Shown piece after piece: positions 1,510-14,169 of a DNA stretch of 15,335 bases. The DNA comes from Gammaproteobacteria bacterium. Lineage in GTDB: Bacteria; Pseudomonadota; Gammaproteobacteria; Xanthomonadales; Xanthomonadaceae. A program made the position numbers and the translations under genes. The notes under the pieces are model-generated. The model worked only from the letters and a program-made list of their open reading frames with translations, had not been told where the DNA came from and searched no databases. The stretch spans positions 1-15,335 of the forward strand of contig JAPLSI010000222.1 of NCBI GenBank assembly GCA_026398715.1. The letters run 5' to 3'. How positions within the stretch are numbered: position 1 is the first letter of the stretch; the number at the start of each line of letters is the position of its first letter.

Positions 1510-2561
1510 CCTATATCGCGAAGCCCAAGCTGCATCATCCGTCGCTGACCACCAACAAGGCCTGCCACACGCGCCGCGACTACGAGGGCAAGATTTCCAC
1601 GCTGTGCGCCGGCTGCGGCCACGACTCGATTTCGGCGGCCATCATCCAGGCCTGCTTCGAGATGGACGTCGAGCCGCACAAGGTCGCCAAGCTGTCGGGC
1701 ATCGGCTGCAGCTCGAAGACGCCCGACTACTTCCTCGGCCAGTCGCACGGATTCAATACCGTGCACGGCCGCATGCCTTCCGTGCTGACCGGCGCCAACC
1801 TGGCCAACCGCGAACTGCTGTACCTCGGCGTGTCGGGCGACGGCGATTCCGCGTCCATCGGCATCGGCCAGTTCGTGCATGTGATGCGGCGTGGCGTGAA
1901 CATGGTCTACATCGTCGAGAACAACGGCGTGTACGGCCTGACCAAGGGCCAGTTCTCGGCGACCGCCGACCAGGGCTCCACGTCCAAGAAGGGCGTGGTC
2001 AATGCCGAAACGCCCATCGACATGGTCAGCTTGGCCCTGCAGATGGGCGCCACCTTCGTGGCGCGCAGCTTCTCGGGCGACAAGCGCCAGTTGGTTCCGT
2101 TGATCAAGGCAGCCATCGCGCACAAGGGCGCGGCCTTCCTGGATGTCATCAGCCCCTGCGTGGCTTTCAACAACCACCCGGGCAGCACCAAGAGCTACGA
2201 CTACGTGCGCGAACACAACGAAGCGGTCAACCGCATCGACGTCATCGCCGCCCGGCAGGAAATCGTGGTGGACTTCGCCGAGGGCGAACTGGTGGAGGTC
2301 GAACAGCACGACGGCAGCGTGCTGCGCCTGCGCAAGTTGAATGCGGACTACGACCCCAGCAACCGGATCGCCGCGATGAACTTCATCCAGCAACACCACG
2401 CCATCGGTGAAGTAGTGACCGGCCTGCTCTATGTCGATCCGGATGCGGTCGACCTTCACCAGCACCTCAACACCAGCGCCACGCCCTTCAACCGGCTGGA
2501 GGCCGGGCAGCTTTGTCCCGGCCCCGAGGTCCTGGAGCGTTTGAACGCCGCCCTGCGCTAG
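1506..2561 (+). CDS. korB: 2-oxoglutarate:ferredoxin oxidoreductase, beta subunit
   Basis: KorB binds thiamine diphosphate and an iron-sulfur cluster and completes the KorAB enzyme that makes succinyl-CoA and reduced ferredoxin. The 351-residue length is normal for the family. Cys34 and Cys37 in CAGCGH, Cys68 in GIGCSSK and Cys218 in ISPCVAFN fit the four cluster ligands. The thiamine/Mg site is visible as GDGDS (111-115) followed by NNGVYGLTKGQ (from 139). The ATG at 1506 overlaps the korA TGA, so the pair is one operon. The gene ends in TAG at 2559-2561, which shows that TAG is a normal stop in this genome and matters for the pnp entry. A 62-base gap with a possible promoter separates it from the kinase gene downstream. 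Confidence 0.94.
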   Translation: MTYIAKPKLHHPSLTTNKACHTRRDYEGKISTLCAGCGHDSISAAIIQACFEMDVEPHKVAKLSGIGCSSKTPDYFLGQSHGFNTVHGRMPSVLTGANLANRELLYLGVSGDGDSASIGIGQFVHVMRRGVNMVYIVENNGVYGLTKGQFSATADQGSTSKKGVVNAETPIDMVSLALQMGATFVARSFSGDKRQLVPLIKAAIAHKGAAFLDVISPCVAFNNHPGSTKSYDYVREHNEAVNRIDVIAARQEIVVDFAEGELVEVEQHDGSVLRLRKLNADYDPSNRIAAMNFIQQHHAIGEVVTGLLYVDPDAVDLHQHLNTSATPFNRLEAGQLCPGPEVLERLNAALR

Positions 2562-2587
2562 GCCGTCCTGCCTGCAGGGCAACGTTG

Positions 2588-2593
2588 TATAGT
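2588..2593 (+). promoter_or_regulatory. possible -10 box for the kinase gene
   Basis: TATAGT lies in the short gap after korB and would place a transcript start near base 2600, about 24 bases before the proposed GTG start of the kinase. No convincing -35 box is seen 16-18 bases upstream. This is a pattern match only, but it agrees with a start near 2621-2627 rather than at the ATG at 2513. Confidence 0.35.
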
Positions 2594-2623
2594 CTTTGCA
2601 GTCGCCCCCTACGGACACTGCTG

Positions 2624-4966
2624 GTGTTGGAAATCCCCGGCTACAGCATCCAACGCATCATCGGCCATGGTGGCATGGCCACGGTCTACCTTGCCGTGCA
2701 GGAGTCGCTGGGACGCGAAGTCGCATTGAAGGTGTTGCTGCCATCGCTGGCCAAGGACCCGGTCGCCACCGAACGCTTCCTGCGCGAGGCTCGTTTCGCC
2801 GCGCAGCTGCACCATCCCAATATCGTCGCCATCCACGATGTTGGCGTGCACGAGGGTAGTCCCTACATGGCGATGGGCTACGAGCCCGGCGGAACGATCG
2901 CGAACCTGATCGAAGGCCGCGAGGACCCGCGTTTCGCCCTGCGCGTGGTCCGCGACATCGCCGGCGCACTCGACTACGCGCACGGCAAGGGCGTCGTGCA
3001 TCGCGACGTGAAGCCGGAAAACATCCTTCGTCGCCTCGACGGCAGCTGCGTGCTGTCCGATTTCGGCATCGCCCACGCCCTGGCCACGCAGACCGGGCTG
3101 ACCACCGAAGGCAGCAGCATCGGCACCCCGCACTACATGAGCCCCGAACAACTGCGCGGCGAAAAAGTGGATGGTCGCGCCGATTTGTACAGCCTGGGCG
3201 TGGTCTTCTATCAATTGTTGACCGGCCACCTGCCCTACCAGGGCACCGACGGCTGGGCGATCGGCATGCAGCACATCAGTGCACCCATCCCACGCCTGCC
3301 CGAACACCTGGGATACCTGCAGCCCCTGGTGGACGCCTTGCTCGCCAAGGACCCCGCCCACCGGGTGCAGACCGGCGGCGACCTGGTGCGCCGCGTCGAG
3401 GCGGCCATTTCAGGCAACCAGCCGCTGGTTTCCGATTCGCAGATAGACCTGCGCAGCCAGCCCGCGCGACGCAGCAGCTGGCTGATCGCGCTGCCCATCG
3501 GCGTAATCGTCATCGCGACGATGATGTTCATGGAAAACCGCGAGAACAAGCGCGTGGCGCTCGCCGCGGCGGCCGTGGTCGCTGCCGACATGCAAGGCGC
3601 CGGGAAGCCCTCCATCGCCGTGCTGCCGCTGGCGGACATGAGCGAAGGCAAGGACCAGGAATATTTTTCCGACGGCCTGTCGGAGGAACTCATCAACCTG
3701 CTCGCGCAGGTCCCGGAACTGCAGGTGGTCGGCCGCACCTCCGCCTTCAGCTTCAAGGGCAAGAACCAGGACCTGAAGGACATCGGCCGGAAGCTCGGCG
3801 TCACCAACCTGCTGGAAGGCAGCGTGCGCAAGACCGGCGACAAGGTCCGGATCACGGTGCAGCTGATCAATGCGCAGACCGGATTCCACTTGTGGTCGCA
3901 GACCTACGACCGCGACTTGACCGATGTCTACGCCGTACAGGACGAAATCGCGGCAGCCGTGGTATCGGCGCTGAAGCTGGAATTGCTCGCGGACGCGACG
4001 CCCGCGGCGCATCGCGCGGTGAATCCCCAGGCTTACACCGCGTTCCTGCGCGCGCGGCAGATCAAGTCGCGTGGCACGCCCGATACCGCGCGCGAAGGCG
4101 TCGAGGCGCTGCAGGAGGTGATCCGGCTCGATCCGGGGTTTGCCGCGGCGCATGCGCAACTCGCGGTCAGCCAGGGCTGGGCCGCCGACTATGCACAAAC
4201 GCCGGCAGACGTTGCCGAACTCCAGCGTCGCGCGCTTGCGGCCGCCGACAAGGCGATCGAACTGGATCCCAATCTCGCCGACGGTTACTGGGCCCGCGGC
4301 AACTTGCGGGCCACGGTCACATGGGACTGGGAAGGCGCGCGATCCGACTTCCAGAAAGCAGTCGCGCTCAATCCCGGCGATGCCCGGATCCTGCAAGGCT
4401 ACGGCGCCCTGCTCGCATCACTGGGGCGCCTGCCCGAAGCCATCGAGACGACGCGCAAGGCAGCGGAAGCAGAACCCCTGCTGTTCTCCGTATGGCAGGC
4501 GCTGGGCTACTACCAGGAAGGCGCGGGACAACTCGACCAGGCCCGGCTTTCGCAGGAACGCGCGCTTGCCCTGAAGCCGAAATTCCCGTTCGTGCATTTC
4601 CGCCTGGGCGTGATCGACCTGCAACAGCACCAACCGAAGAATGCCGCGCGCGCCTTCGCGGCATCGGGCTACGAGCCTTTGCAGTTGCTGGGCGCGGCAC
4701 TGGCCGAACATGACCTTCGCCGCGGCTCGGAGTCGCAGCACGCCCTGGATGCGTTGATCAGGGACTACGGCCACAACGCCGCCTACCAGGTCGCGCAGGC
4801 CTATGCGTGGCGCGGGCAGAAGGACGAAGCGTTCCAGTGGCTCGACCGCGCCTTCGCGCAACGCGACGGCGGCCTGGCGGAAGTGAAATACGATCCACTG
4901 CTGCGCAGCCTGCGCAAGGACCCGCGCTACCGCGAACTGCTCGGCAAGATGGGCCTGCCGCAGTAA
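2624..4966 (+). CDS. membrane-anchored Ser/Thr protein kinase with TolB-like domain and TPR repeats
   Basis: The N-terminal ~280 residues are a Hanks-type kinase: glycine loop GHGGMATVY (14-22), Lys36 in VALK, HRDVKPEN (126-133), DFG (146-148), and GTPHYMSPEQ after a Thr/Ser-rich activation loop. A proline-poor hydrophobic segment at about 286-304 is a single membrane span. Residues ~328-450 match the TolB N-terminal/FlgO-like domain seen in adenylate-cyclase-like proteins (IAVLPLADMS... EYFSDGLSEEL), and the remainder to residue 780 is TPR-like helical repeats. The kinase should face the cytoplasm and the rest the periplasm. The frame stays open back to an ATG at 2513, but that lies inside korB and gives a low-complexity Arg/Pro leader. 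GTG 2624 (or CTG 2621, TTG 2627) starts just before the kinase fold (LEIPGYSIQRIIG). No clear ribosome site helps decide. Targets are unknown. Confidence 0.88.
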   Translation: MLEIPGYSIQRIIGHGGMATVYLAVQESLGREVALKVLLPSLAKDPVATERFLREARFAAQLHHPNIVAIHDVGVHEGSPYMAMGYEPGGTIANLIEGREDPRFALRVVRDIAGALDYAHGKGVVHRDVKPENILRRLDGSCVLSDFGIAHALATQTGLTTEGSSIGTPHYMSPEQLRGEKVDGRADLYSLGVVFYQLLTGHLPYQGTDGWAIGMQHISAPIPRLPEHLGYLQPLVDALLAKDPAHRVQTGGDLVRRVEAAISGNQPLVSDSQIDLRSQPARRSSWLIALPIGVIVIATMMFMENRENKRVALAAAAVVAADMQGAGKPSIAVLPLADMSEGKDQEYFSDGLSEELINLLAQVPELQVVGRTSAFSFKGKNQDLKDIGRKLGVTNLLEGSVRKTGDKVRITVQLINAQTGFHLWSQTYDRDLTDVYAVQDEIAAAVVSALKLELLADATPAAHRAVNPQAYTAFLRARQIKSRGTPDTAREGVEALQEVIRLDPGFAAAHAQLAVSQGWAADYAQTPADVAELQRRALAAADKAIELDPNLADGYWARGNLRATVTWDWEGARSDFQKAVALNPGDARILQGYGALLASLGRLPEAIETTRKAAEAEPLLFSVWQALGYYQEGAGQLDQARLSQERALALKPKFPFVHFRLGVIDLQQHQPKNAARAFAASGYEPLQLLGAALAEHDLRRGSESQHALDALIRDYGHNAAYQVAQAYAWRGQKDEAFQWLDRAFAQRDGGLAEVKYDPLLRSLRKDPRYRELLGKMGLPQ

Positions 4967-4972
4967 TCGGGC

Positions 4973-5428
4973 TCAGGGTTTCGCGCCGGCCTGCGGCCTC
5001 GGCCACGGCCACCAGCCGCGTCCCGTCATCGCATACCGGTCGGCCGCCTGCTCAAAACGGTTCGATGCCGACACGCCGCCAAAGGCGAAATACAGCGGCA
5101 CGAACAAGGGCCCCAACACCAGGTACTGGTATACATGCGCGCGCTCGTGGTCGCCGATGCGTACGCAATCGTCGCCGCCATGGGCGCGACAGGCATAGGT
5201 GGGCGCTGTTTCGTCCAGGCTCTTGCCGGTGTGCAGGATGACGTTGCCCAAAGTCAGCGCACCGCCGGGACCGAAAGGCACGTGGTGGAAGACCAGGGCG
5301 CCATCGGAGAACTTCGCGCGCGCGCCCAGCGCCAACGCAGCCATTCCGGCGACCATGCCCGCCAGCGTGTAAGGGCTGGCCCAGACCGCGCCAATTCCCT
5401 GCACAAGGCCCAATGCGAATCGATTCAA
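4973..5428 (-). CDS. small membrane-associated protein with HExxH zincin-like motif
   Basis: With a TTG start at 5428 this is a 151-residue protein. The TTG shares three bases with the RpiR stop (TTGA) and has a GGGGAG ribosome site about 8 bases upstream. The frame is open upstream to 5623, but only inside rpiR, so that extension is rejected. A hydrophobic segment (about 19-34) precedes a short domain. HERAH at 94-98 is an HExxH metal-binding motif, followed by a hydrophobic stretch (VLGPLFVPLYFAF, about 104-116) and FEQAAD, with Glu126 a possible third zinc ligand. I recall a family of uncharacterised proteins with this HExxH...GPLFVP pattern. Peptidase activity is inference. It ends 6 bases from the converging kinase stop. 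Its coupling to the regulator gene suggests co-expression, but its role is unknown. Confidence 0.7.
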   Translation of the reverse strand: MNRFALGLVQGIGAVWASPYTLAGMVAGMAALALGARAKFSDGALVFHHVPFGPGGALTLGNVILHTGKSLDETAPTYACRAHGGDDCVRIGDHERAHVYQYLVLGPLFVPLYFAFGGVSASNRFEQAADRYAMTGRGWWPWPRPQAGAKP

Positions 5429-6285
5429 GGCTGCCGCTCCCCGCCGAGCATCGTTTCCAGTTCCTCGATGCGGCGCCGGCTCTTGTCCCAACCCTGCCGG
5501 CTCACTTCGGCCAGCAACCATTCCGACAAGGCCATCAAGGCGGTGCTCGAATCCCAGACCGAAGGCACCGCCACGCGCGCCGACAGCACATGGGTGGCGA
5601 CCCGGACGATGGGCGATAGCCATTGGTCGGTAAGCAGCACGATGCGCACCTGTCGCGCCGCCGCCGCGTGCGCGAGCCGCTGCAGGCTGGCCTGGTATCG
5701 ACGGATGTCGAATATGACCAGTACGTCGCGCTTGCCCATGTCCAGCAGCTGGTCGCGCCAGTTGGATTCCTGTTCCTGCATGTGGCTCACGCCCGGCCGC
5801 AGGATGCGCAATTGCACCGACAGGTACAGGGCCAGCGCGTCGGTGAAACGACCACCGATCAGGTGGATGCGAAGTCGCGGGTCGGACACCAGCCGCACGA
5901 TGTCGTCGAACTCGCCAGGCGGGACGCCGGCAAAGGTTTCCTGCAGGTTGCGAAGGATCGCATCGGAGAATCCGGCATGCGCCGGCTCCGGTTTGCCTGA
6001 CCGGGCCTTGCGAACCGGCGACGGCTGCTTGGCCAGGGGCGAACTGAGCTGCGCGGAAAGCTCGTCCCGCAGGCTGCGCTGGAAAGCGAGGTAGGACGCA
6101 AACCCGAGCCGCCCCACCAGGCGCAGCACCGTCGGCGGGCTGACCCCGACGGCGCGTGCCAGGTGGGTGGCGCTCTGCAGGCCCGCCACCGGGTATTCGG
6201 CCAGCAGTTGGTGTGCGACCCGCCGTTCTGTCGCCGGAAAACCATCCAGGCCGTCACGCAGGCGTTCCACTATGGTCTGGCCCAT
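5425..6285 (-). CDS. RpiR/MurR-family transcriptional regulator (HTH plus SIS domain)
   Basis: This is a DNA-binding regulator of 286 residues, normal for the family. Helices with ATERRVAHQLL (18-28) lead into the RpiR helix-turn-helix at about 36-62 (HLARAVGVSPPTVLRLVGRLGF). A C-terminal SIS ligand-binding fold runs from about residue 140 (LIGGRFTDA, Gly144-Gly145) to 265. The ATG at 6285 is preferred because GGAG lies 5 bases upstream; a TTG at 6303 would add six residues without a better site. It is transcribed away from the gamma-glutamylation operon, and two palindromes lie in the shared upstream gap, so it most likely controls that operon and itself. SIS domains of this family usually sense phosphosugars; here the effector may be an intermediate of the amine pathway, which is inference. 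Confidence 0.9.
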   Translation of the reverse strand: MGQTIVERLRDGLDGFPATERRVAHQLLAEYPVAGLQSATHLARAVGVSPPTVLRLVGRLGFASYLAFQRSLRDELSAQLSSPLAKQPSPVRKARSGKPEPAHAGFSDAILRNLQETFAGVPPGEFDDIVRLVSDPRLRIHLIGGRFTDALALYLSVQLRILRPGVSHMQEQESNWRDQLLDMGKRDVLVIFDIRRYQASLQRLAHAAAARQVRIVLLTDQWLSPIVRVATHVLSARVAVPSVWDSSTALMALSEWLLAEVSRQGWDKSRRRIEELETMLGGERQP

Positions 6286-6304
6286 CGCTGCTCCATGGAT
6301 CAAC

Positions 6305-6349: not shown

Positions 6350-7186
6350 ATGAAACACCGCTGTAATAATTATTACAACTGGTTTTCGGGAAATCACGCT
6401 ATCGCCCCCCAGCTCGCCAGCGCCGAATTGGCATTGAAGAACCCGCCCGTGGCGGTGCGAAACCTGCACGGCCGCGGCCCGGTGGTCCTGATCTGCGAGC
6501 ATGCCAGTCGCTTCATTCCGGATTCGTACGAGGCGCTCGGGCTGTCTGCGCAGGACCAGGCCAGGCACATCGCCTGGGACATCGGCGCGCTGGGCCTGGC
6601 AGATGAGCTTTCCGAAATGCTCGACGCGCCGCTCGTGCACGCCACCTACTCGCGGCTGCTGCTGGACTTGAACCGGCCCATCGACGCTCCTGACTCCATC
6701 GTCGAGACCAGCGAAGGCACGCCGATACCCGGAAACATCGGAATCGACCTTTCGCAACGCGAGCTGAGGCAGCGGCAGATCTACGCCCCGTTCCATGCCG
6801 AACTCGACGCGCTGGTGGATAGGCGCATCGCGTCGGGACTGCCGACCTGCGTGGTATCCATCCACTCGTTCACCCCGCGCTACCACGGCGTTGACCGCCC
6901 CTGGCACGTAGGCGTCATCTCCCGGAACGACCGGTCGCTGGCTGATGCCTTGCTGGCTGCGCTTCGCGCCGAACCGGGACTGTGCGTCGGCGACAACCTG
7001 CCCTATGGTCCGCAGGATGGCGTGTACCACAGCCTTGAACGCCACGGCGAAGCGCGCGGCCTGCGCGGCGCGATGGTCGAGGTCCGCAATGATTTGCTCG
7101 ACGATGCCCCATCGCGAAGGCGATGGGCCCAGACATTGCGCAGGACGATCGAATCGGCGCTGCGCGAAATTGCAGCCACAAGCTGA
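6350..7186 (+). CDS. N-formylglutamate amidohydrolase-family hydrolase, probable gamma-glutamyl-amide hydrolase
   Basis: The protein belongs to the N-formylglutamate amidohydrolase family (PF05013), zinc-type enzymes that cleave an amide on glutamate. Visible family blocks are CEHAS (49-53), SRLLLDLNRP (Asp106, Arg109), SIHSFTP (His172) and EVRNDLL (Glu244), numbered from the ATG at 6350. That ATG has a weak ribosome site, the first ~35 residues are not family-like, and a perfect palindrome lies inside them. TTG 6428 or 6434, or GTG 6449 or 6455, may be the true start. No histidine-utilisation (hut) genes are nearby. It is first in an operon with a gamma-glutamyl ligase, two dehydrogenases and a permease, so I infer that it hydrolyses the final gamma-glutamyl intermediate and regenerates glutamate. 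An ordinary formylglutamate deformylase remains the alternative. Confidence 0.85.
   Translation: MKHRCNNYYNWFSGNHAIAPQLASAELALKNPPVAVRNLHGRGPVVLICEHASRFIPDSYEALGLSAQDQARHIAWDIGALGLADELSEMLDAPLVHATYSRLLLDLNRPIDAPDSIVETSEGTPIPGNIGIDLSQRELRQRQIYAPFHAELDALVDRRIASGLPTCVVSIHSFTPRYHGVDRPWHVGVISRNDRSLADALLAALRAEPGLCVGDNLPYGPQDGVYHSLERHGEARGLRGAMVEVRNDLLDDAPSRRRWAQTLRRTIESALREIAATS
6362..6377. promoter_or_regulatory. putative operator 2 (perfect 16-bp palindrome)
   Basis: TGTAATAATTATTACA is a perfect inverted repeat in an otherwise GC-rich region. Its centre is 39 bp from the centre of operator 1. Because it is symmetrical, each strand also reads TGTAATAAT, which resembles an extended -10 element, so a bound regulator could block RNA polymerase in both directions. 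It falls within codons 5-10 if the hydrolase gene starts at 6350, which argues for a later start of that gene. Confidence 0.65.
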
Positions 7187-7203
7187 CCAGCCAGGAAACA
7201 GCG

Positions 7204-8574
7204 ATGACTTCACCCTCGTACACGATGGAACAATTGCGAATCGACGTCGCTGCAGGAAGCATCGATACGGTGCTCGCCTGCATGGTGGACATGCAGGGCC
7301 GGCTGATTGGCAAGCGCTTCCAGGCCGAATATTTCCTCGACAGCGGCCACGAGGAAACACATTGCTGCAATTACCTGCTGGCCAACGACATCGACATGGA
7401 GCCGGTGCCCGGCTATGCCGCCGCCAGCTGGACCAAGGGCTACGGCGACTTCGTGCTGAAACCGGACATGGCGACGCTGCGCAAGGTCGGTTGGCTCGAA
7501 AACACTGCGCTCGTGCTTTGTGACGTGCAGGACCACCACGGCCACGACTTGCCGCACAGCCCTCGCGGCATCCTCAAGAAACAGGTGGCGCGCCTTGCCG
7601 ACCGTGGCTACACCGGCATGTTCGCCTCCGAACTGGAGTTCTACCTGTTCAACGAAAGCTACGAGGACATCCACGAAAAGAATTACCAGAAGCCCAAGAC
7701 CGCCGGCCATTACATCGAGGACTACAACATCCTGCAGACCACCCGCGAAGAGCCGGTGATGCGGGCAATCCGTAAGCACCTGCAGGCCGCGGGCGTACCG
7801 GTTGAAAATTCCAAGGGCGAATGGGGTCCGGGCCAGGAAGAGATCAACGTGCGTTATTGCGAGGCGCTGGAGATGGCCGACCGGCACGCCATCATCAAGC
7901 ACGCCTGCAAGGAAATCGCGTTGCTGCAGGGCAAGTCCATCACCTTCATGGCCAAATGGCGCTACGACCTGGCCGGCTCGAGCAGCCACATCCACAATTC
8001 GCTATGGGACCGCGACGGCGCCAAGCCCCTGTTCTTCGCACCCGAAGCGGAATTCGGCATGTCGGCTCTGATGCGTTCGTGGGTGGCGGGCCAGCTCAAG
8101 TACGCAAGCCACATCACCGGCTTCCTGGCGCCGTACATCAACTCGTACAAGCGCTTCCAGGTCGGCACCTTCGCGCCGACGCGCGCGATCTGGAGCCGCG
8201 ACAACCGCACCGCAGGTTTTCGCCTGTGCGCCGAAGGCAGCAAGGGCATCCGCATCGAATGCCGCATCGGCGGCGCCGACCTCAATCCCTACCTGGCATT
8301 CGCCGCGCTGATCGCGGCGGGCCTGGCCGGCATCGATGAGAAACTCACCCTGGATGCGCCCTTCGAAGGCGATGCCTATTACGGCGAGGCGCTTCCGGAA
8401 GTCCCCAAGACCCTGCGCGAGGCGACGGCGGCCATGCGCAGCTCGGCGATGTTGCGCACCGCCTTCGGCGACGAGGTCATCGACCACTACGCGCATACCG
8501 CCGACTGGGAACAACTGGAATACGACCGCCGGGTGACCGACTGGGAATTGCGCCGCGGCTTCGAGCGTTATTGA
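7204..8574 (+). CDS. glutamine-synthetase-family gamma-glutamylamide ligase (PuuA/GlnA4-like)
   Basis: A 456-residue type I glutamine synthetase fold. The expected ATP-dependent reaction joins glutamate through its gamma-carboxyl to an amine. Visible are the N-terminal DMQGRLIGKRF, ELEF (143-146), GPGQEE (208-213), SHIHN (261-265), APTRAIW...NR (324-335) and IECR...ADLNPYL (from 351). These supply the metal, glutamate and ATP ligands. The GKRF block and the lack of an adenylylation-site loop are like PuuA and GlnA4 rather than true GlnA. The ATG at 7204 has AGGAA about 6 bases upstream; the frame stays open further upstream, but into the previous gene. It lies 17 bases after the hydrolase stop. 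With an alcohol dehydrogenase instead of PuuB downstream, the substrate is more likely an amino alcohol such as ethanolamine than putrescine (inference). Confidence 0.9.
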   Translation: MTSPSYTMEQLRIDVAAGSIDTVLACMVDMQGRLIGKRFQAEYFLDSGHEETHCCNYLLANDIDMEPVPGYAAASWTKGYGDFVLKPDMATLRKVGWLENTALVLCDVQDHHGHDLPHSPRGILKKQVARLADRGYTGMFASELEFYLFNESYEDIHEKNYQKPKTAGHYIEDYNILQTTREEPVMRAIRKHLQAAGVPVENSKGEWGPGQEEINVRYCEALEMADRHAIIKHACKEIALLQGKSITFMAKWRYDLAGSSSHIHNSLWDRDGAKPLFFAPEAEFGMSALMRSWVAGQLKYASHITGFLAPYINSYKRFQVGTFAPTRAIWSRDNRTAGFRLCAEGSKGIRIECRIGGADLNPYLAFAALIAAGLAGIDEKLTLDAPFEGDAYYGEALPEVPKTLREATAAMRSSAMLRTAFGDEVIDHYAHTADWEQLEYDRRVTDWELRRGFERY

Positions 8575-8581
8575 GGACAGC

Positions 8582-9973
8582 ATGAGCACACAGGTACAAC
8601 TTGTTTCACCCGTGGACGGCCTGGTTTACGTCGAACGACGCAATGCCTTTGAAAGCGAGGTGGAGGCTGCGCTGCAATCCGCAGCGAGCGCGCAGGCGCA
8701 ATGGAAGCGTCGCCCGCTGTCGGAACGCGCGGCCTTCTGCACCGCTGCGGTCGATGCGATGTTGTCCATGCGCGACCAGATCGTGCCCGAGCTTGCCTGG
8801 CAGATGGGCCGACCGGTTCGCTATGGCGCGGGCGAGCTTCGCGGCTTCGAGGAACGCGCGCGCTACATGATTGCCATCGCGCCCGAAGCGCTCGCGTCGA
8901 TCGACCCGGGACCAAAGCCCGGCTTCCATCGCCTCATCAAGCGCGAGCCGCTCGGCACGGTGCTTGTCATTGCGCCTTGGAACTATCCCTACCTGACGGC
9001 GGTGAACTCCATCATTCCGGCCCTGATGGCAGGCAACAGCGTCATCCTCAAGCACGCTACGCAGACCTTGCTGGTCGGCGAGCGATTTGCCGAAGCGTTC
9101 CGTCTCGCCAAACTCCCCGAAGGCCTGTTCCAGAACCTCGTGCTCGACCACGGCCAGACCGCGGCGATCATCGGCTCGGGCCGCGTGCAGCAGGTCAACT
9201 TCACCGGCTCGGTCGCCGGCGGCCGGGCGATGGAATCCGCAGCGTCCGGGCACTTCCTCGGCCTGGGCCTGGAATTGGGCGGCAAGGATCCGGCCTACGT
9301 GCGTGCCGATGCCGATCTCGCCCACAGCGTCGAAAACCTGGTCGATGGCAGCTTCTTCAATTCCGGGCAAAGCTGCTGCGGCATCGAGCGCATCTACGTG
9401 CATCGAAGCGTGTATCCCGAATTCGTCGACCGCTTCGTCGCACTCACTCGCCAATACGTGCTGGGCAGTCCCTTGAACGAGGCCACGACACTTGGGCCGG
9501 TAATCAAGCCGTCGGCGGCGGAATTCATTCGCCGCCAGATCACCGACGCGGTCGCCATGGGCGCGCGCGCGCTGATAGACCCTGCGGACTTTCCCGCCGA
9601 TCGGCCGGGCTCCGCCTATCTTGCGCCGCAGGTTCTGGTGGATGTGGACCACCGCATGTCGGTGATGCGCGACGAAAGCTTCGGCCCGGTGGTCGGCATC
9701 ATGGCGGTGGATGACGACGAGGAAGCGATCGCGCTGATGAACGACAGCGAGTTCGGCCTGACCGCATCCATCTGGACCATGGACCTCGAAGCAGCCGAAC
9801 GGATCGGCGACCGCATCGCGACGGGTACCGTCTTCATGAATCGCTGCGACGCGCTCGACCCGGCCCTGGCCTGGACCGGCGTGAAGAACACCGGCCGAGG
9901 TGCCACGCTTTCCCGCGTCGGCTACGAAACCCTGACCCGCCCCAAGTCCTTCCACCTTCGCCACGAGATCTGA
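8582..9973 (+). CDS. NAD(P)-dependent aldehyde dehydrogenase
   Basis: A complete aldehyde dehydrogenase of 463 residues that oxidises an aldehyde to the acid. PWNYPY (cofactor/active-site entry, near 130), the LELGGK block with catalytic Glu231, and GQSCC with nucleophile Cys265 are all present, as is ESFGPV toward the C-terminus. The start ATG is 7 bases after the ligase stop, and the ribosome site GAGGA overlaps that TGA, so translation is probably coupled. It resembles the semialdehyde-oxidising branch (as in PuuC or succinate-semialdehyde dehydrogenase). In this operon it would oxidise the gamma-glutamyl-amino aldehyde made by the alcohol dehydrogenase. Substrate assignment rests on context, not on sequence. 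Confidence 0.92.
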   Translation: MSTQVQLVSPVDGLVYVERRNAFESEVEAALQSAASAQAQWKRRPLSERAAFCTAAVDAMLSMRDQIVPELAWQMGRPVRYGAGELRGFEERARYMIAIAPEALASIDPGPKPGFHRLIKREPLGTVLVIAPWNYPYLTAVNSIIPALMAGNSVILKHATQTLLVGERFAEAFRLAKLPEGLFQNLVLDHGQTAAIIGSGRVQQVNFTGSVAGGRAMESAASGHFLGLGLELGGKDPAYVRADADLAHSVENLVDGSFFNSGQSCCGIERIYVHRSVYPEFVDRFVALTRQYVLGSPLNEATTLGPVIKPSAAEFIRRQITDAVAMGARALIDPADFPADRPGSAYLAPQVLVDVDHRMSVMRDESFGPVVGIMAVDDDEEAIALMNDSEFGLTASIWTMDLEAAERIGDRIATGTVFMNRCDALDPALAWTGVKNTGRGATLSRVGYETLTRPKSFHLRHEI

Positions 9974-9977
9974 ATCG

Positions 9978-11141
9978 ATGCCTCCGTCAGCCAACTGGAA
10001 CTACCCCACCACCGTCCGATTCGGCGCCGGCCGCATCGGCGAACTGGCGGACAACTGCAAGGCGCACGGCATCCTTCGTCCGTTGCTGGTCACCGACAGC
10101 GGCCTCGCACGCGCGCCGATCACCGTGGCCGCGGTCGAATCGCTTCGCGCGGCCGGCCTGGGCGTGGGATTGTTCTCGGACCTCAAGCCCAATCCGGTCG
10201 AAGCCAATCTTCGCGACGGGCTGCAGGCCTATCGCGATGGCGGCCACGATGGCGTGGTCGCATTCGGCGGCGGCAGCGGCCTGGACATGGGCAAGCTGAT
10301 CGCCTTCATGAGCGGCCAGTCACGGCCGGTTTGGGACTTCGAGGACATCGGCGACTGGTGGACACGCGCCGACCCCGATGGCATCGCGCCGGTCATCGCC
10401 GTGCCGACGACCGCGGGCACGGGGTCCGAAGTCGGACGCGCCGGTGTACTCACCGACGATCGCACGCATACCAAGCGCATCATCTTCCACCCGAAGATGA
10501 TGCCGAAGGTGGTGATCTGCGACCCCACGTTGACGGTGGGCATGCCCTCGAAGATCACCGCGGGCACGGGCATGGACGCGTTGTCGCATTGCCTCGAGGC
10601 CTACTGTGCGCCCGGTTTCCATCCCATGGCCGACGGCATCGCCGTCGAGGGCATGCGCCTGGTCGCCCGCTCGCTCGTGCGCGCCGTGCAGGCGCCCGAA
10701 GACCTGGATGCCCGGTCCGACATGATGGCGGCGGCCCTGATGGGCGCCACGGCCTTCCAGAAGGGCCTGGGCGGCATGCACGCGCTGTCGCACCCAGTGG
10801 GCGCGCTGTACGACACCCACCACGGCATGACCAACGCGACTTTCATGCCGTACGTACTGGACTTCAACCGCGACGCCATCGCCGGGCGCATCACCCGGCT
10901 GGCCGCCTACCTGGACCTGCCGGAGCCTGGATTCGAGAGCTTCCAGCGCTTCGTCCTGGACCTGCGGCGGACCATCGGCGTGCCGCATACACTGCCCGAA
11001 TTGGGCGTGGACGATGCCCGGGCGGGACTGGTCGCCGAAATGGCGATCGTCGATCCCTCGGCGTCGGGCAACCCGGTACCGCTTGACCTCGCCGGGGCTG
11101 CGAGTATTTTTTCAGCGGCGACACAGGGTCGATTGCGCTGA
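9978..11141 (+). CDS. iron-containing alcohol dehydrogenase (group III)
   Basis: A 387-residue iron-type alcohol dehydrogenase, the usual length. The NAD-binding GGGSGLDMGK starts at residue 97, and TTAGTGSEV follows. The metal ligands expected from FucO are Asp200 and His204 in GMDALSHCLE, His268 in MHALSHP and His282 in THHG; the spacings fit. It starts 4 bases after the aldehyde dehydrogenase stop. In Puu-type pathways this step is an amine oxidase (PuuB). An alcohol dehydrogenase here means that the gamma-glutamylated substrate carries a hydroxyl group, for example gamma-glutamylethanolamide, oxidised to the aldehyde that the preceding gene's enzyme then takes. The family is certain; the substrate is inferred. 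Confidence 0.92.
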   Translation: MPPSANWNYPTTVRFGAGRIGELADNCKAHGILRPLLVTDSGLARAPITVAAVESLRAAGLGVGLFSDLKPNPVEANLRDGLQAYRDGGHDGVVAFGGGSGLDMGKLIAFMSGQSRPVWDFEDIGDWWTRADPDGIAPVIAVPTTAGTGSEVGRAGVLTDDRTHTKRIIFHPKMMPKVVICDPTLTVGMPSKITAGTGMDALSHCLEAYCAPGFHPMADGIAVEGMRLVARSLVRAVQAPEDLDARSDMMAAALMGATAFQKGLGGMHALSHPVGALYDTHHGMTNATFMPYVLDFNRDAIAGRITRLAAYLDLPEPGFESFQRFVLDLRRTIGVPHTLPELGVDDARAGLVAEMAIVDPSASGNPVPLDLAGAASIFSAATQGRLR

Positions 11142-11235
11142 TGGAGCAAGGTTGATCGCGTTCGCTCGAGCGCGATGCCAAGGGAGTTTTGCAAGCGGGG
11201 ATAGACGTGTGACTTAACCTTTCAAGGGGAACGAC
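11142..11235 (+). other. 94-base gap between alcohol dehydrogenase and permease, with hairpin
   Basis: ATCGCG at 11155-11160 pairs with CGCGAT at 11171-11176 around a 10-base loop, and CGCTCGAGCG at 11164-11173 is a competing perfect palindrome. Only a short run of four T follows (11187-11190 region), so this is not a strong terminator. It may stabilise the upstream message or lower permease expression. AAGGGGA at 11224-11230 is the permease ribosome site. No clear promoter is seen. Confidence 0.4.
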
Positions 11236-12789
11236 ATGAATCCTGAACAACCCGGCGCCGGGTCGGCGCACGACGAGGACACCAAACAGCTGCACGCCAT
11301 GGGCTATGCCCAGGAACTGGCGCGAAGCATGGGCGGGTTCTCGAACTTCGCAATATCTTTCTCGATCATCTGCATCCTGTCCGGCGGCATCAACTCGCTG
11401 GCACAGGCCACCTCGGGCGCGGGTGGCGCGGCCATCGGAATCGGCTGGCCCCTGGGCTGCCTGATTTCCGGCGTGTTCGCCATCGCCATGGCGCAGATCG
11501 CATCCGCCTATCCGACGGCAGGCGGCCTTTATCACTGGGGTTCGATCCTGGGCAACCGGTTCACCGGCTGGCTGACGGCATGGTTCAACCTGCTCGGGTT
11601 GGTGACGGTGTTGGGCGCGATCAACGTCGGCACCTATTATTTCTTCCTCGGTGCTTTTGGCGCGCAATTCGGCATCACTGATTCGATGACGACGCTGGTC
11701 GTATTCCTTTCGATCATCACCGGCGCGATGGCCCTGATCAACCACTTCGGCATCAGCCTGACGGCAAAGCTCACTGACTTCTCGGGCTACCTGATCTTCG
11801 CAACGGCGCTCGGACTGACGGCAGTCTGCCTGGCCTACGCGCCGAGCTACGAGTTCGGACGCCTGTTCACCTTCTCCAACTATTCGGGTGAAGCCGGCGC
11901 CAACGTCTGGCCGGAAGTGTCGGGTGGCTGGGTGTTCGCGCTCGGTTTGTTGCTGCCTATCTATACCATCACCGGATACGACGCCTCCGCGCACACGGCC
12001 GAGGAAACCAAGAAGGCATCCCACTCGGTTCCGCGTGGCATCGTCAGCTCTGTCTTGTGGTCGGCCTTGTTCGGCTACGTCATGCTTTGCTCCTTCGTCC
12101 TGATGCTGCCGAACATGGATGACGCCGCCAAGCAAGGTTGGAACGTATTTTTCTGGGCAATGGACACCCAGGTCCAGTCACCGATCAAGACGGTCCTGTA
12201 CGCCGCGATTGCCATTTCGCAGTTCCTGTGCGGACTGGCGACGGTCACTTCCATCTCGCGCATGATGTTTGCTTTCTCGCGCGATGGCGGCTTGCCGTTC
12301 TCCAAATCGCTTGCGTCCGTTTCCCCGAAGTACCGCACGCCGGTGCACGCGATCTGGGCAGGCTCCATCCTGTCGGTGCTGTTCGTCTGGGGCGCGAAGG
12401 CGGTGGAAGCGGGCGGAGTGACGCCGGTTTACACCATCGTCGTATCCTGCACCGTGATCTTCCTGTTCTTCTCCTTCGCGATACCGATCGCGCTGGGCCT
12501 GTTCGCGCATGGCACCTCCAAGTGGCCGGTGATGGGCCCCTGGGACCTGGGTCCGGCAGTGTTCAAGCTGTTCGCCTTCCTTTCCATCGTCGCGATGGTG
12601 CTGATCTTCGTGATCGGCGTGCAGCCGCCCAACGCCATGGCCTTGAAGATCACCATCGGCTTCTTCATCCTGACCGCCATTGTCTGGTTCGCGCTCGAGA
12701 ACAAGCGATTCCAGGGCCCACCCATCGGCGACATGATCGCCAAGAAGCAGGCAGAAATTGCAGCAGCGGAGGCAGCGCTGAACCGCTGA
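11236..12789 (+). CDS. APC-superfamily amino acid/amine permease (GABA/choline transporter-like)
   Basis: An inner-membrane transporter of 517 residues with about 12 hydrophobic segments and a short polar N-terminus. The start of the fold (GYAQELARSMGGFSNFAISFSI), YPTAGGLYHWG after the second membrane segment, and GYDASAHTAEET at 247-258 are typical of the amino acid-choline transporter branch of the APC superfamily, which includes GABA and choline permeases. A strong ribosome site precedes the ATG. As the last gene of the operon before an intrinsic terminator, it most likely imports the amine that the ligase glutamylates. Ethanolamine or a related amino alcohol fits the branch; GABA or an amino acid cannot be excluded. 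The C-terminus is a short Lys/Glu/Ala-rich cytoplasmic tail. Confidence 0.9.
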   Translation: MNPEQPGAGSAHDEDTKQLHAMGYAQELARSMGGFSNFAISFSIICILSGGINSLAQATSGAGGAAIGIGWPLGCLISGVFAIAMAQIASAYPTAGGLYHWGSILGNRFTGWLTAWFNLLGLVTVLGAINVGTYYFFLGAFGAQFGITDSMTTLVVFLSIITGAMALINHFGISLTAKLTDFSGYLIFATALGLTAVCLAYAPSYEFGRLFTFSNYSGEAGANVWPEVSGGWVFALGLLLPIYTITGYDASAHTAEETKKASHSVPRGIVSSVLWSALFGYVMLCSFVLMLPNMDDAAKQGWNVFFWAMDTQVQSPIKTVLYAAIAISQFLCGLATVTSISRMMFAFSRDGGLPFSKSLASVSPKYRTPVHAIWAGSILSVLFVWGAKAVEAGGVTPVYTIVVSCTVIFLFFSFAIPIALGLFAHGTSKWPVMGPWDLGPAVFKLFAFLSIVAMVLIFVIGVQPPNAMALKITIGFFILTAIVWFALENKRFQGPPIGDMIAKKQAEIAAAEAALNR

Positions 12790-12814
12790 TCCCCTGCCGC
12801 ATTGCCTGACACAG

Positions 12815-12842
12815 AACGGGGCGCGCAAGCGTCCCGTTTTTT
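12815..12842 (+). terminator. strong intrinsic terminator of the catabolic operon
   Basis: AACGGGGCGC (12815-12824) pairs with GCGTCCCGTT (12829-12838), a 10-bp stem with one G-U pair closed by a GCAA tetraloop, and is followed directly by more T residues (six T in a row from 12837). It lies 25 bases after the permease stop and ends the operon. Confidence 0.9.
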
Positions 12843-12882
12843 GTTGAGATAACATTCCTCCGTATTCCCGGAGGCAAGACGG

Positions 12883-14169
12883 ATGACGGAACCAGATGCG
12901 GCGAACCAACCCGGGCTTTCCACGCGTACCACGCCGACCTGGGAAATGGAGTTGCTGGTTTCGGCCGGCACCATCGTCGGCCTGTTGCAGCTACCGTCCC
13001 TGCTCGACGTCGTGCACACGCCGCTGCTCAACGGCAGCTCGGAGGCCTTCAGCTTCCTGATCTCGGCGACCTGGGCCTACTGCAACCTGGTCCTATACAC
13101 GCTAATCGCCACCTTCCTGGCGCATTTGTGCCTGCGCGCGTATTGGGTCGCGCTGGTGGGTATGGACTCGGTTTATCCCGGAGGTATTCGCTGGGAAAAA
13201 ATGCGCATGGGCCCTGTGTCCCGCGCACTCGCCGCGAGCAACTCCACGCCAGTGCCCGACGCGATCGAAGCGGCCGACAATCGCGCCACGCGCGTCTTCG
13301 GCATAGGCTTCGGTGCCGCGATGATCCTGTTGATGCCGGTCGTGCTGGCCCTGGTCGGCATGCTGGTGGCATGGATGCTGGACGCGGTTGCCGGCCCCCG
13401 GTTGGCCGCGCTTTCGTTCTACATCGTGTTTGGCGTGGTGCTGGTTCCCCTGCTCACCGCTCAACTGCTGGACCAGCAACTGGGCAAGCGCCTTGACCCG
13501 ACGGGTTGGCCTGCCCGCACACTCACGCAAGTGCTCCGCCCTTACCGCAGCCTGGGTCTCGACAGCAGCGGCAACTTGCTGGTAGCGCTGTTCGCAAGCC
13601 ACGAGGGCGGCCGTCGGGCCGGCCTGATCGCCGCAGCCTTTATGGCCCCCGTGGTGGGAGTGCTGATGATTTCGGCGTTGGCCAATTCTGGTCGCCTGCA
13701 ACTCGGCGACGATGCCGGCTGGCCGCGGGCGGATCCCAGCGGAGGGCGTAGCGTCGTCAATGATTTCTACGGCAGCCTGCGCGGCGACCTTGGCACACGC
13801 AGGCCGATGCCCTTCATACCCGACCGCGTGGCCTCGGGTGACTACCTGCCCTTGTTCGTGCCTTTCATCCCGCGCCTGCATACGCATGTCATGGAAACAG
13901 CCTGCCCGGATGTGCTGGCAGCCAACCGATCGACGGCCGACTCCGTCGCCAGCCTGGATTGCCTCGCGCGCATCAGCGCCATCGAACTGGATGGAAAACC
14001 AGTGGTGGTTGTCTTCGAGGCGAGCGCCGACCCAGCCAGCGGACAACGCGGCATGCTGGCGATGCTGCCCGTGGCCAGCCTGGCGAGCGGTCGCCACGAA
14101 ATCAGCCTGGGCGCACCTGTAAAACGTGGCGAAAAGGCAAAGCGTTACCGCATTCCGTTCTGGAAGTAG
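12883..14169 (+). CDS. polytopic membrane protein of unknown function
   Basis: I do not recognise this 428-residue protein. Hydrophobic segments lie at about 24-41, 60-90 (possibly two spans), 138-163, 174-197 and 247-266. A polar C-terminal part (267-428) contains two Cys residues (in ACPDVL and LDCLAR) and ends in a basic stretch. The C-terminal part may be a periplasmic domain. The ATG has GGAGG 8 bases upstream, and the gene follows the operon terminator, so it should have its own promoter; a weak TAACAT at 12850-12855 is the only candidate. The 3' end overlaps the end of the minus-strand pnp frame by 25 bases. Nothing ties it to the catabolic operon. Confidence 0.8.

Follow-up and report, generated by a model that had tools for sequence, protein, structure and literature searches.

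A five-gene operon on a gammaproteobacterial contig probably serves ethanolamine catabolism by the known gamma-glutamylation route

In the Puu pathway of Escherichia coli, amines are degraded by gamma-glutamylation, an aldehyde dehydrogenase (ALDH) step, and a hydrolysis that recovers glutamate, and a gamma-glutamylation route of ethanolamine catabolism is known as well, among others from Chromohalobacter salexigens, a gammaproteobacterium. The DNA analyzed here is a stretch of 15,335 nucleotides (contig JAPLSI010000222.1 of the GenBank assembly GCA_026398715.1, Gammaproteobacteria bacterium), to which we refer at its full length as the window, and its subject is a five-gene operon that most likely encodes this known ethanolamine route (probability about 0.87). 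The operon follows the same gamma-glutamylation logic as the E. coli Puu pathway, but the ligases of the two belong to different clades, and the E. coli proteins PuuB, PuuD, and PuuE have no match in the window (PuuB at E 1e-6; the E. coli control was recovered).

For ethanolamine use by C. salexigens, Table 2 of PMC9397018 tabulates PF00120, PF00465, PF00171, and PF05013, which are the same four enzyme families as in the window; ethanolamine is bound there by a TRAP protein (PMC10132767), whereas the operon of the window ends with a permease of the APC superfamily. The operon of Phaeobacter sp. MED193 (MED193_10021-10056) consists, as given in PMC10132767, of RpiR, GGAH, EtoVWX, ETAGA, GAADDH, and GETADH, is induced on phosphorylethanolamine, and includes the protein EtoX, which binds ethanolamine with a Kd of 7.9 μM. 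Compared by gene order alone, its RpiR, GGAH, ETAGA, GAADDH, and GETADH genes are arranged as in the window, but the TRAP transporter EtoVWX is placed between hydrolase and ligase, whereas the window has an APC permease after the iron alcohol dehydrogenase (FeADH). In Streptomyces coelicolor, GlnA4 glutamylates ethanolamine and the later steps have been proposed (SCO1611-1615; PMC6529630); as described in that source, they resemble the steps proposed for the window, the last enzyme being of the formylglutamate-amidohydrolase family, and the cluster contains no ethanolamine transporter. The S. coelicolor regulator is named EpuRI (PMC9397018).

Operon layout and proposed reactions

Gene content, homology, gene neighborhood, and ligase clade were established computationally. 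Five open reading frames (ORFs) on the forward strand are spaced by 17, 7, 4, and 94 bases in the ORF list, and the Pfam matches of all five proteins exceed their cut-offs in a profile search of the window proteins. The first encodes a hydrolase of the N-formylglutamate amidohydrolase (FGase) family (6350..7186; PF05013, 145 bits), a proposed gamma-glutamylglycine amidohydrolase (GGAH), and the second a glutamine-synthetase-like ligase (7204..8574, nested in a longer frame of the list with its start at 7123; PF00120, 330 bits), a proposed gamma-glutamylethanolamide synthetase of the ETAGA / GlnA4 type. They are followed by an ALDH (8582..9973; PF00171, 393 bits) that is proposed to form gamma-glutamylglycine (GAADDH), an FeADH (9978..11141; PF00465, 156 bits, and PF25137, 134 bits) as the proposed gamma-glutamylethanolamide dehydrogenase (GETADH), and an APC-superfamily permease (11236..12789; PF13520, AA_permease_2, 167 bits) with a proposed function in amine uptake. 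The operon is closed by an intrinsic terminator on the same strand (12813..12840), a hairpin with a 12-pair stem and a 4-base loop, the 3' arm of which runs into T6; the folding energy of the region 12800-12850 is -25 kcal/mol vs. a mean of -12.3 for shuffled sequences (z -4.45), a value equaled by none of 200 shuffles. A simple terminator scan of the window did not pick up this hairpin, and a promoter scan of the window was uninformative (2 sites vs. 0.9 expected). The five-gene operon with these gaps and a closing terminator, as described in the initial annotation, is thus borne out by the ORFs, the Pfam matches, and the hairpin fold. To that description we add the divergent gene of an RpiR-family regulator on the reverse strand (5425..6285; HTH_6 and SIS domains, PF01418 at 32 bits and PF01380 at 61 bits, the protein having been scanned by Pfam with a longer start at 6303), which belongs to the operon system.

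In the proposed route, the amine would be imported by the APC permease and the ligase would use ATP to join ethanolamine to the gamma-carboxyl group of glutamate, yielding gamma-glutamylethanolamide. The FeADH would oxidize the hydroxyl group of this intermediate to an aldehyde, the ALDH would convert the aldehyde to gamma-glutamylglycine, and the FGase-family hydrolase would split the latter into glycine and recovered glutamate, while the divergent RpiR protein would control the operon, probably via a palindrome at 6362..6377. We infer the substrate, the order of the reactions, and their regulation in the source organism.

The 16-bp perfect palindrome TGTAATAATTATTACA (6362..6377) is the likely operator of the RpiR protein, and we take it to resemble operators of the HexR/RpiR family. 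No other site of the window matches TGTAATNNNNATTACA at one mismatch or fewer, nor does any in 200 shuffles, and the palindrome is identical in L001, a metagenome-assembled genome (MAG) titled Gammaproteobacteria bacterium RIFCSPHIGHO2_12_FULL_63_22, which is the closest relative among the matches listed and carries the same operon and flanking genes. The form TGTA-N8-TACA was present in 9 of the 33 intervals between RpiR and hydrolase genes that were inspected (window counted) and missing from 24, locus L031 included; the nine are not independent, since several are close kin. A TTGACA element is conserved upstream in the window, L001, and L130. As the palindrome, common to the window and L001, falls within the first codons of the hydrolase, the start at 6350 is doubtful and the true start may be located downstream of 6377.

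The best solved relative of the hydrolase is 2odf (Atu2144; 191 bits), and its score of 26.3 bits against the HutG model TIGR02017 is below the cut-off of 278.75; by these matches it is assigned to the N-formylglutamate amidohydrolase family, with HutG itself excluded. The ALDH carries the motifs LELGGK and GQSCCG, and the FeADH carries GMDALSH, GMHALSHPVG, and THHG at residues 198, 266, and 280, presumably as its metal site.

Ligase clade and gene neighborhoods

In the comparison with NCBIfam models, the ligase remained under the cut-off for GlnA (226 of 429 bits), GGputSyn (188 of 650 bits), and type III glutamine synthetase (GS). A structure-sequence search returned 11zs and 5dm3 as the best solved relatives, the latter being Csal_0679, to which the ligase is homologous over its length (573 bits, 55% identity across 370 aligned residues); Csal_0678, the neighboring number, is named together with an ethanolamine-binding protein in PMC10132767. 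The ligase phylogeny proposed in the initial annotation placed the window protein outside PuuA and GlnA, in a clade of its own with 100/100 support that unites ligases linked to EAT-type (ethanolamine permease), TRAP, and APC transporters; the program flagged long branches in this tree, and Csal_0679 is not among its rows. The three transporter types interleave on the tree. PuuA of E. coli is 29% identical to the window ligase and belongs to a different clade, while the ligases of the actinobacteria Embleya and Nonomuraea share 48-50% identity with it and are placed in a sister clade. In the alignment with E. coli GlnA, residue F323 takes the place of the flap glutamate, the E of GYEAP, and is matched by F331 in GlnA4 of S. 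coelicolor (PMC6529630). Another sister clade contains the ligases of L131, L132, and L094 (59-65% identical), near which dehydrogenases are absent; this clade may serve another amine, since the copy of Paraburkholderia phymatum stands near a gene of the gamma-glutamyl-GABA hydrolase family.

Relatives of the ligase were searched in one genome per species and the best 80 of at least 582 places were kept; these 80 loci are the closest matches and an uneven sample, mainly Pseudomonas (38) and Hyphomicrobiales. Neighbors were counted within ~6.5 kb of the ligase by identity thresholds (for APC permease relatives ≥ 55%). This neighborhood search, likewise proposed earlier, recovered the ALDH and the FeADH beside 74 ligases each, the APC permease beside 42, the FGase beside 30, RpiR beside 29, TRAP components beside 13, and an EAT-type permease beside 6. 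A single transporter type was present in 61 loci and two types together in none, while in 19 loci, some of them on short contigs, none was recognized. Complete sets of RpiR, FGase, TRAP, GS, ALDH, and FeADH occurred in six loci, and the three of these whose positions were inspected (L060, L070, L073) have the Phaeobacter gene order.

Within one family (source record titled Lysobacteraceae) the ligase was detected at E ≤ 1e-100 in 6 of 198 genomes, a patchy distribution. Four of them encode ligases with 76-82% identity and have an EAT-type (TIGR00908-like) permease directly upstream of the ligase, in the order FGase-EAT-GS-ALDH-FeADH in L128, with RpiR in addition in L130, and as RpiR-FGase-EAT-GS-ALDH-FeADH in L031, while L129 begins at a contig end. 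The other two ligases (59-60%) have no operon neighbors, with the contig of L131 stopping just past the ligase.

On a plasmid of Paracoccus pantotrophus (L097:6145-14125), a divergent RpiR gene and an IS5 transposase gene are followed by FGase, GS, ALDH, FeADH, bhcB, bhcC, and bhcD, the last three being annotated for glyoxylate/glycolate breakdown. The beta-hydroxyaspartate cycle uses glycine. As the Paracoccus operon runs into bhcBCD, glycine as the end product, and hence ethanolamine as the substrate, fits, and such a layout would couple glycine release to glycine assimilation.

Transporter exchange and competing readings

The best NCBIfam model of the window permease is TIGR00907, at a score below the cut-off, while L001 carries in its place a permease whose best model is TIGR00908 (ethanolamine permease). 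The remaining proteins of the two operons are 93% (RpiR), 88% (FGase), 98% (GS), 97% (ALDH), and 86% (FeADH) identical, and the DNA similarity ends at 11075 and restarts at 12909 (window 9978-12789 vs. L001:10775-13510). Identity between the FeADH proteins amounts to 91, 96, and 90% over the first three hundreds of residues and 63% over the last 87, for which the Pseudomonas loci (70-73%) and L031 (69%) are nearer to the window than L001 is. By these alignments, this looks like an exchange of the transporter with a probable breakpoint within the FeADH gene; the sign is modest, since the last part of the FeADH was less conserved in every comparison printed.

Several observations weigh against the ethanolamine reading. 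The window has neither the TRAP transporter EtoVWX nor a TIGR00908 permease and carries a TIGR00907-like APC permease instead, and even the EAT-type permeases of L001, L128, and L130 score just under the TIGR00908 cut-off (368, 371, and 372 vs. 381.75 bits), while that of L031 (6457-7929) has an in-frame stop near 7245, by decay or assembly error. The models nearest to the dehydrogenases are 4-hydroxybutyrate dehydrogenase for the FeADH (336 of 500 bits needed) and succinic semialdehyde dehydrogenase for the ALDH (311 of 521), so that on these scores the family models are uninformative about their substrates. The bhc genes adjoin no locus searched except that of Paracoccus, and neither FGase nor FeADH was found near the Embleya ligase using window proteins as queries.

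The FGase, moreover, is missing near the ligase in 50 of the 80 loci, among them all 38 of Pseudomonas (L002-L030, L032-L040), four of which (L008, L011, L028, L040) cover a stretch shorter than 6 kb on the upstream side of the ligase; 36 of these 38 loci contain both dehydrogenases, 26 the APC permease, 5 TRAP, and 1 an EAT-type permease. A search for a hydrolase among 10 chosen ORFs of L004 yielded no FGase or GATase match. The genome of P. fluorescens C8 encodes a single PF05013 protein, and EutB is present in it; genome searches did not find EutB in L001 (a MAG), L031, or L060. Given the 50 loci without FGase and the EutB of P. fluorescens C8, ethanolamine degradation through this route cannot be taken as certain for every member. 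Finally, in two Hyphomicrobiaceae MAGs with ligases 74-75% identical to that of the window, an aminotransferase with 30% identity to PuuE is located directly upstream of the ligase (L041, 6747-7943; L079, 6650-7852). This arrangement may belong to a pathway variant or to a different amine, and it slightly lowers our confidence in ethanolamine as the substrate.

Of the competing readings, the one that survives best retains the chemistry and replaces ethanolamine by a different amino alcohol, e.g., 3-amino-1-propanol, which would be converted to gamma-glutamyl-beta-alanine, with the APC permease marking the change in specificity. It could draw on the TIGR00907-like permease, not a recognized ethanolamine transporter, of the window and 42 of the 80 loci, and on the 24 loci that have APC permease, ALDH, and FeADH but no FGase or RpiR, yet the permease types are intermixed on the ligase tree, L001 combines an ethanolamine-type permease with near-identical ligase and ALDH, and bhcBCD beside the Paracoccus operon suggests a C2 product. 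We therefore regard it as improbable, and no finding points to 3-aminopropanol itself. In a more specific form, the APC-type operons, the window included, would have moved to another amino alcohol by an exchange, with its breakpoint in the FeADH gene, that replaces the transporter and the FeADH C-terminus at once; this is slightly less probable still, but if true, it would amount to modular retargeting of a gamma-glutamyl amine pathway.

A Puu-type pathway for putrescine or another polyamine is very improbable. Such a pathway would explain why a GS-like ligase, an ALDH, a hydrolase, and a permease share an operon, and the ligase does reach 188 bits on the GGputSyn model; this is, however, far from the 650 bits needed, and PuuA falls into a different clade. 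PuuD was found in none of the 80 loci and PuuE-like proteins (~30%) in three, in two cases immediately before the ligase gene. A PuuB-type oxidase, for which the initial annotation had suggested looking in the conserved neighborhood, is absent from the window and occurs in 1 of the 80 loci (L022, ~7 kb from the ligase). Neither this search nor the ligase phylogeny refuted the interpretation given in the initial annotation. Based on the clade, the model scores, and a window without PuuB and PuuD, the Puu-type reading was rejected. Equally remote are nitrogen assimilation by a true glutamine synthetase and histidine catabolism by HutG, in line with public records that name the ligase glutamine synthetase or glutamine synthetase family protein and with the naming of PF05013 for N-formylglutamate amidohydrolase, but rejected on the GlnA and HutG model scores given above, with F323 replacing the flap glutamate of GlnA and with all four genomes searched holding a separate ligase grouped with GlnA of E. 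coli as well as an FGase match of far higher score (246-252 bits), which may be HutG.

Flanking genes and significance of the route

Downstream of the operon, the window contains a predicted protein without Pfam or NCBIfam match (12883-14169; 89% identical in L001), situated before a gene whose product looks, by eye, like polynucleotide phosphorylase. On the other side, a large ORF (2513-4966; 95% identical in L001), by eye a Ser/Thr protein kinase with repeats after it, adjoins genes that read by eye as subunits of 2-oxoacid:ferredoxin oxidoreductase (1-2561).

The initial annotation had proposed gamma-glutamylation of an amino alcohol, which would give a gammaproteobacterium a cobalamin-independent way to use ethanolamine. 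Homology and neighborhood support such a cobalamin-independent pathway well, with ethanolamine as the most likely substrate, but novelty of the route for the class falls, since proteobacterial operons have already been described, including that of the gammaproteobacterial C. salexigens with four matching families and that of Phaeobacter with a nearly identical layout. Among the titles listed by literature searches, none dealt with the route in Lysobacterales or with its connection to bhc genes. The enzymology of the route is known and the operon raises no new question on its chemistry; the small additions made here are the candidate operator, the transporter exchange, the bhc neighbor, and the lack of a hydrolase match in Pseudomonas. 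A function can be proposed for a gene entered in public records simply as glutamine synthetase, and a cobalamin-independent ethanolamine route is probably placed in a gammaproteobacterium whose nearest relative among the genomes examined shows no EutB, with uptake appearing as the exchangeable part of the pathway.

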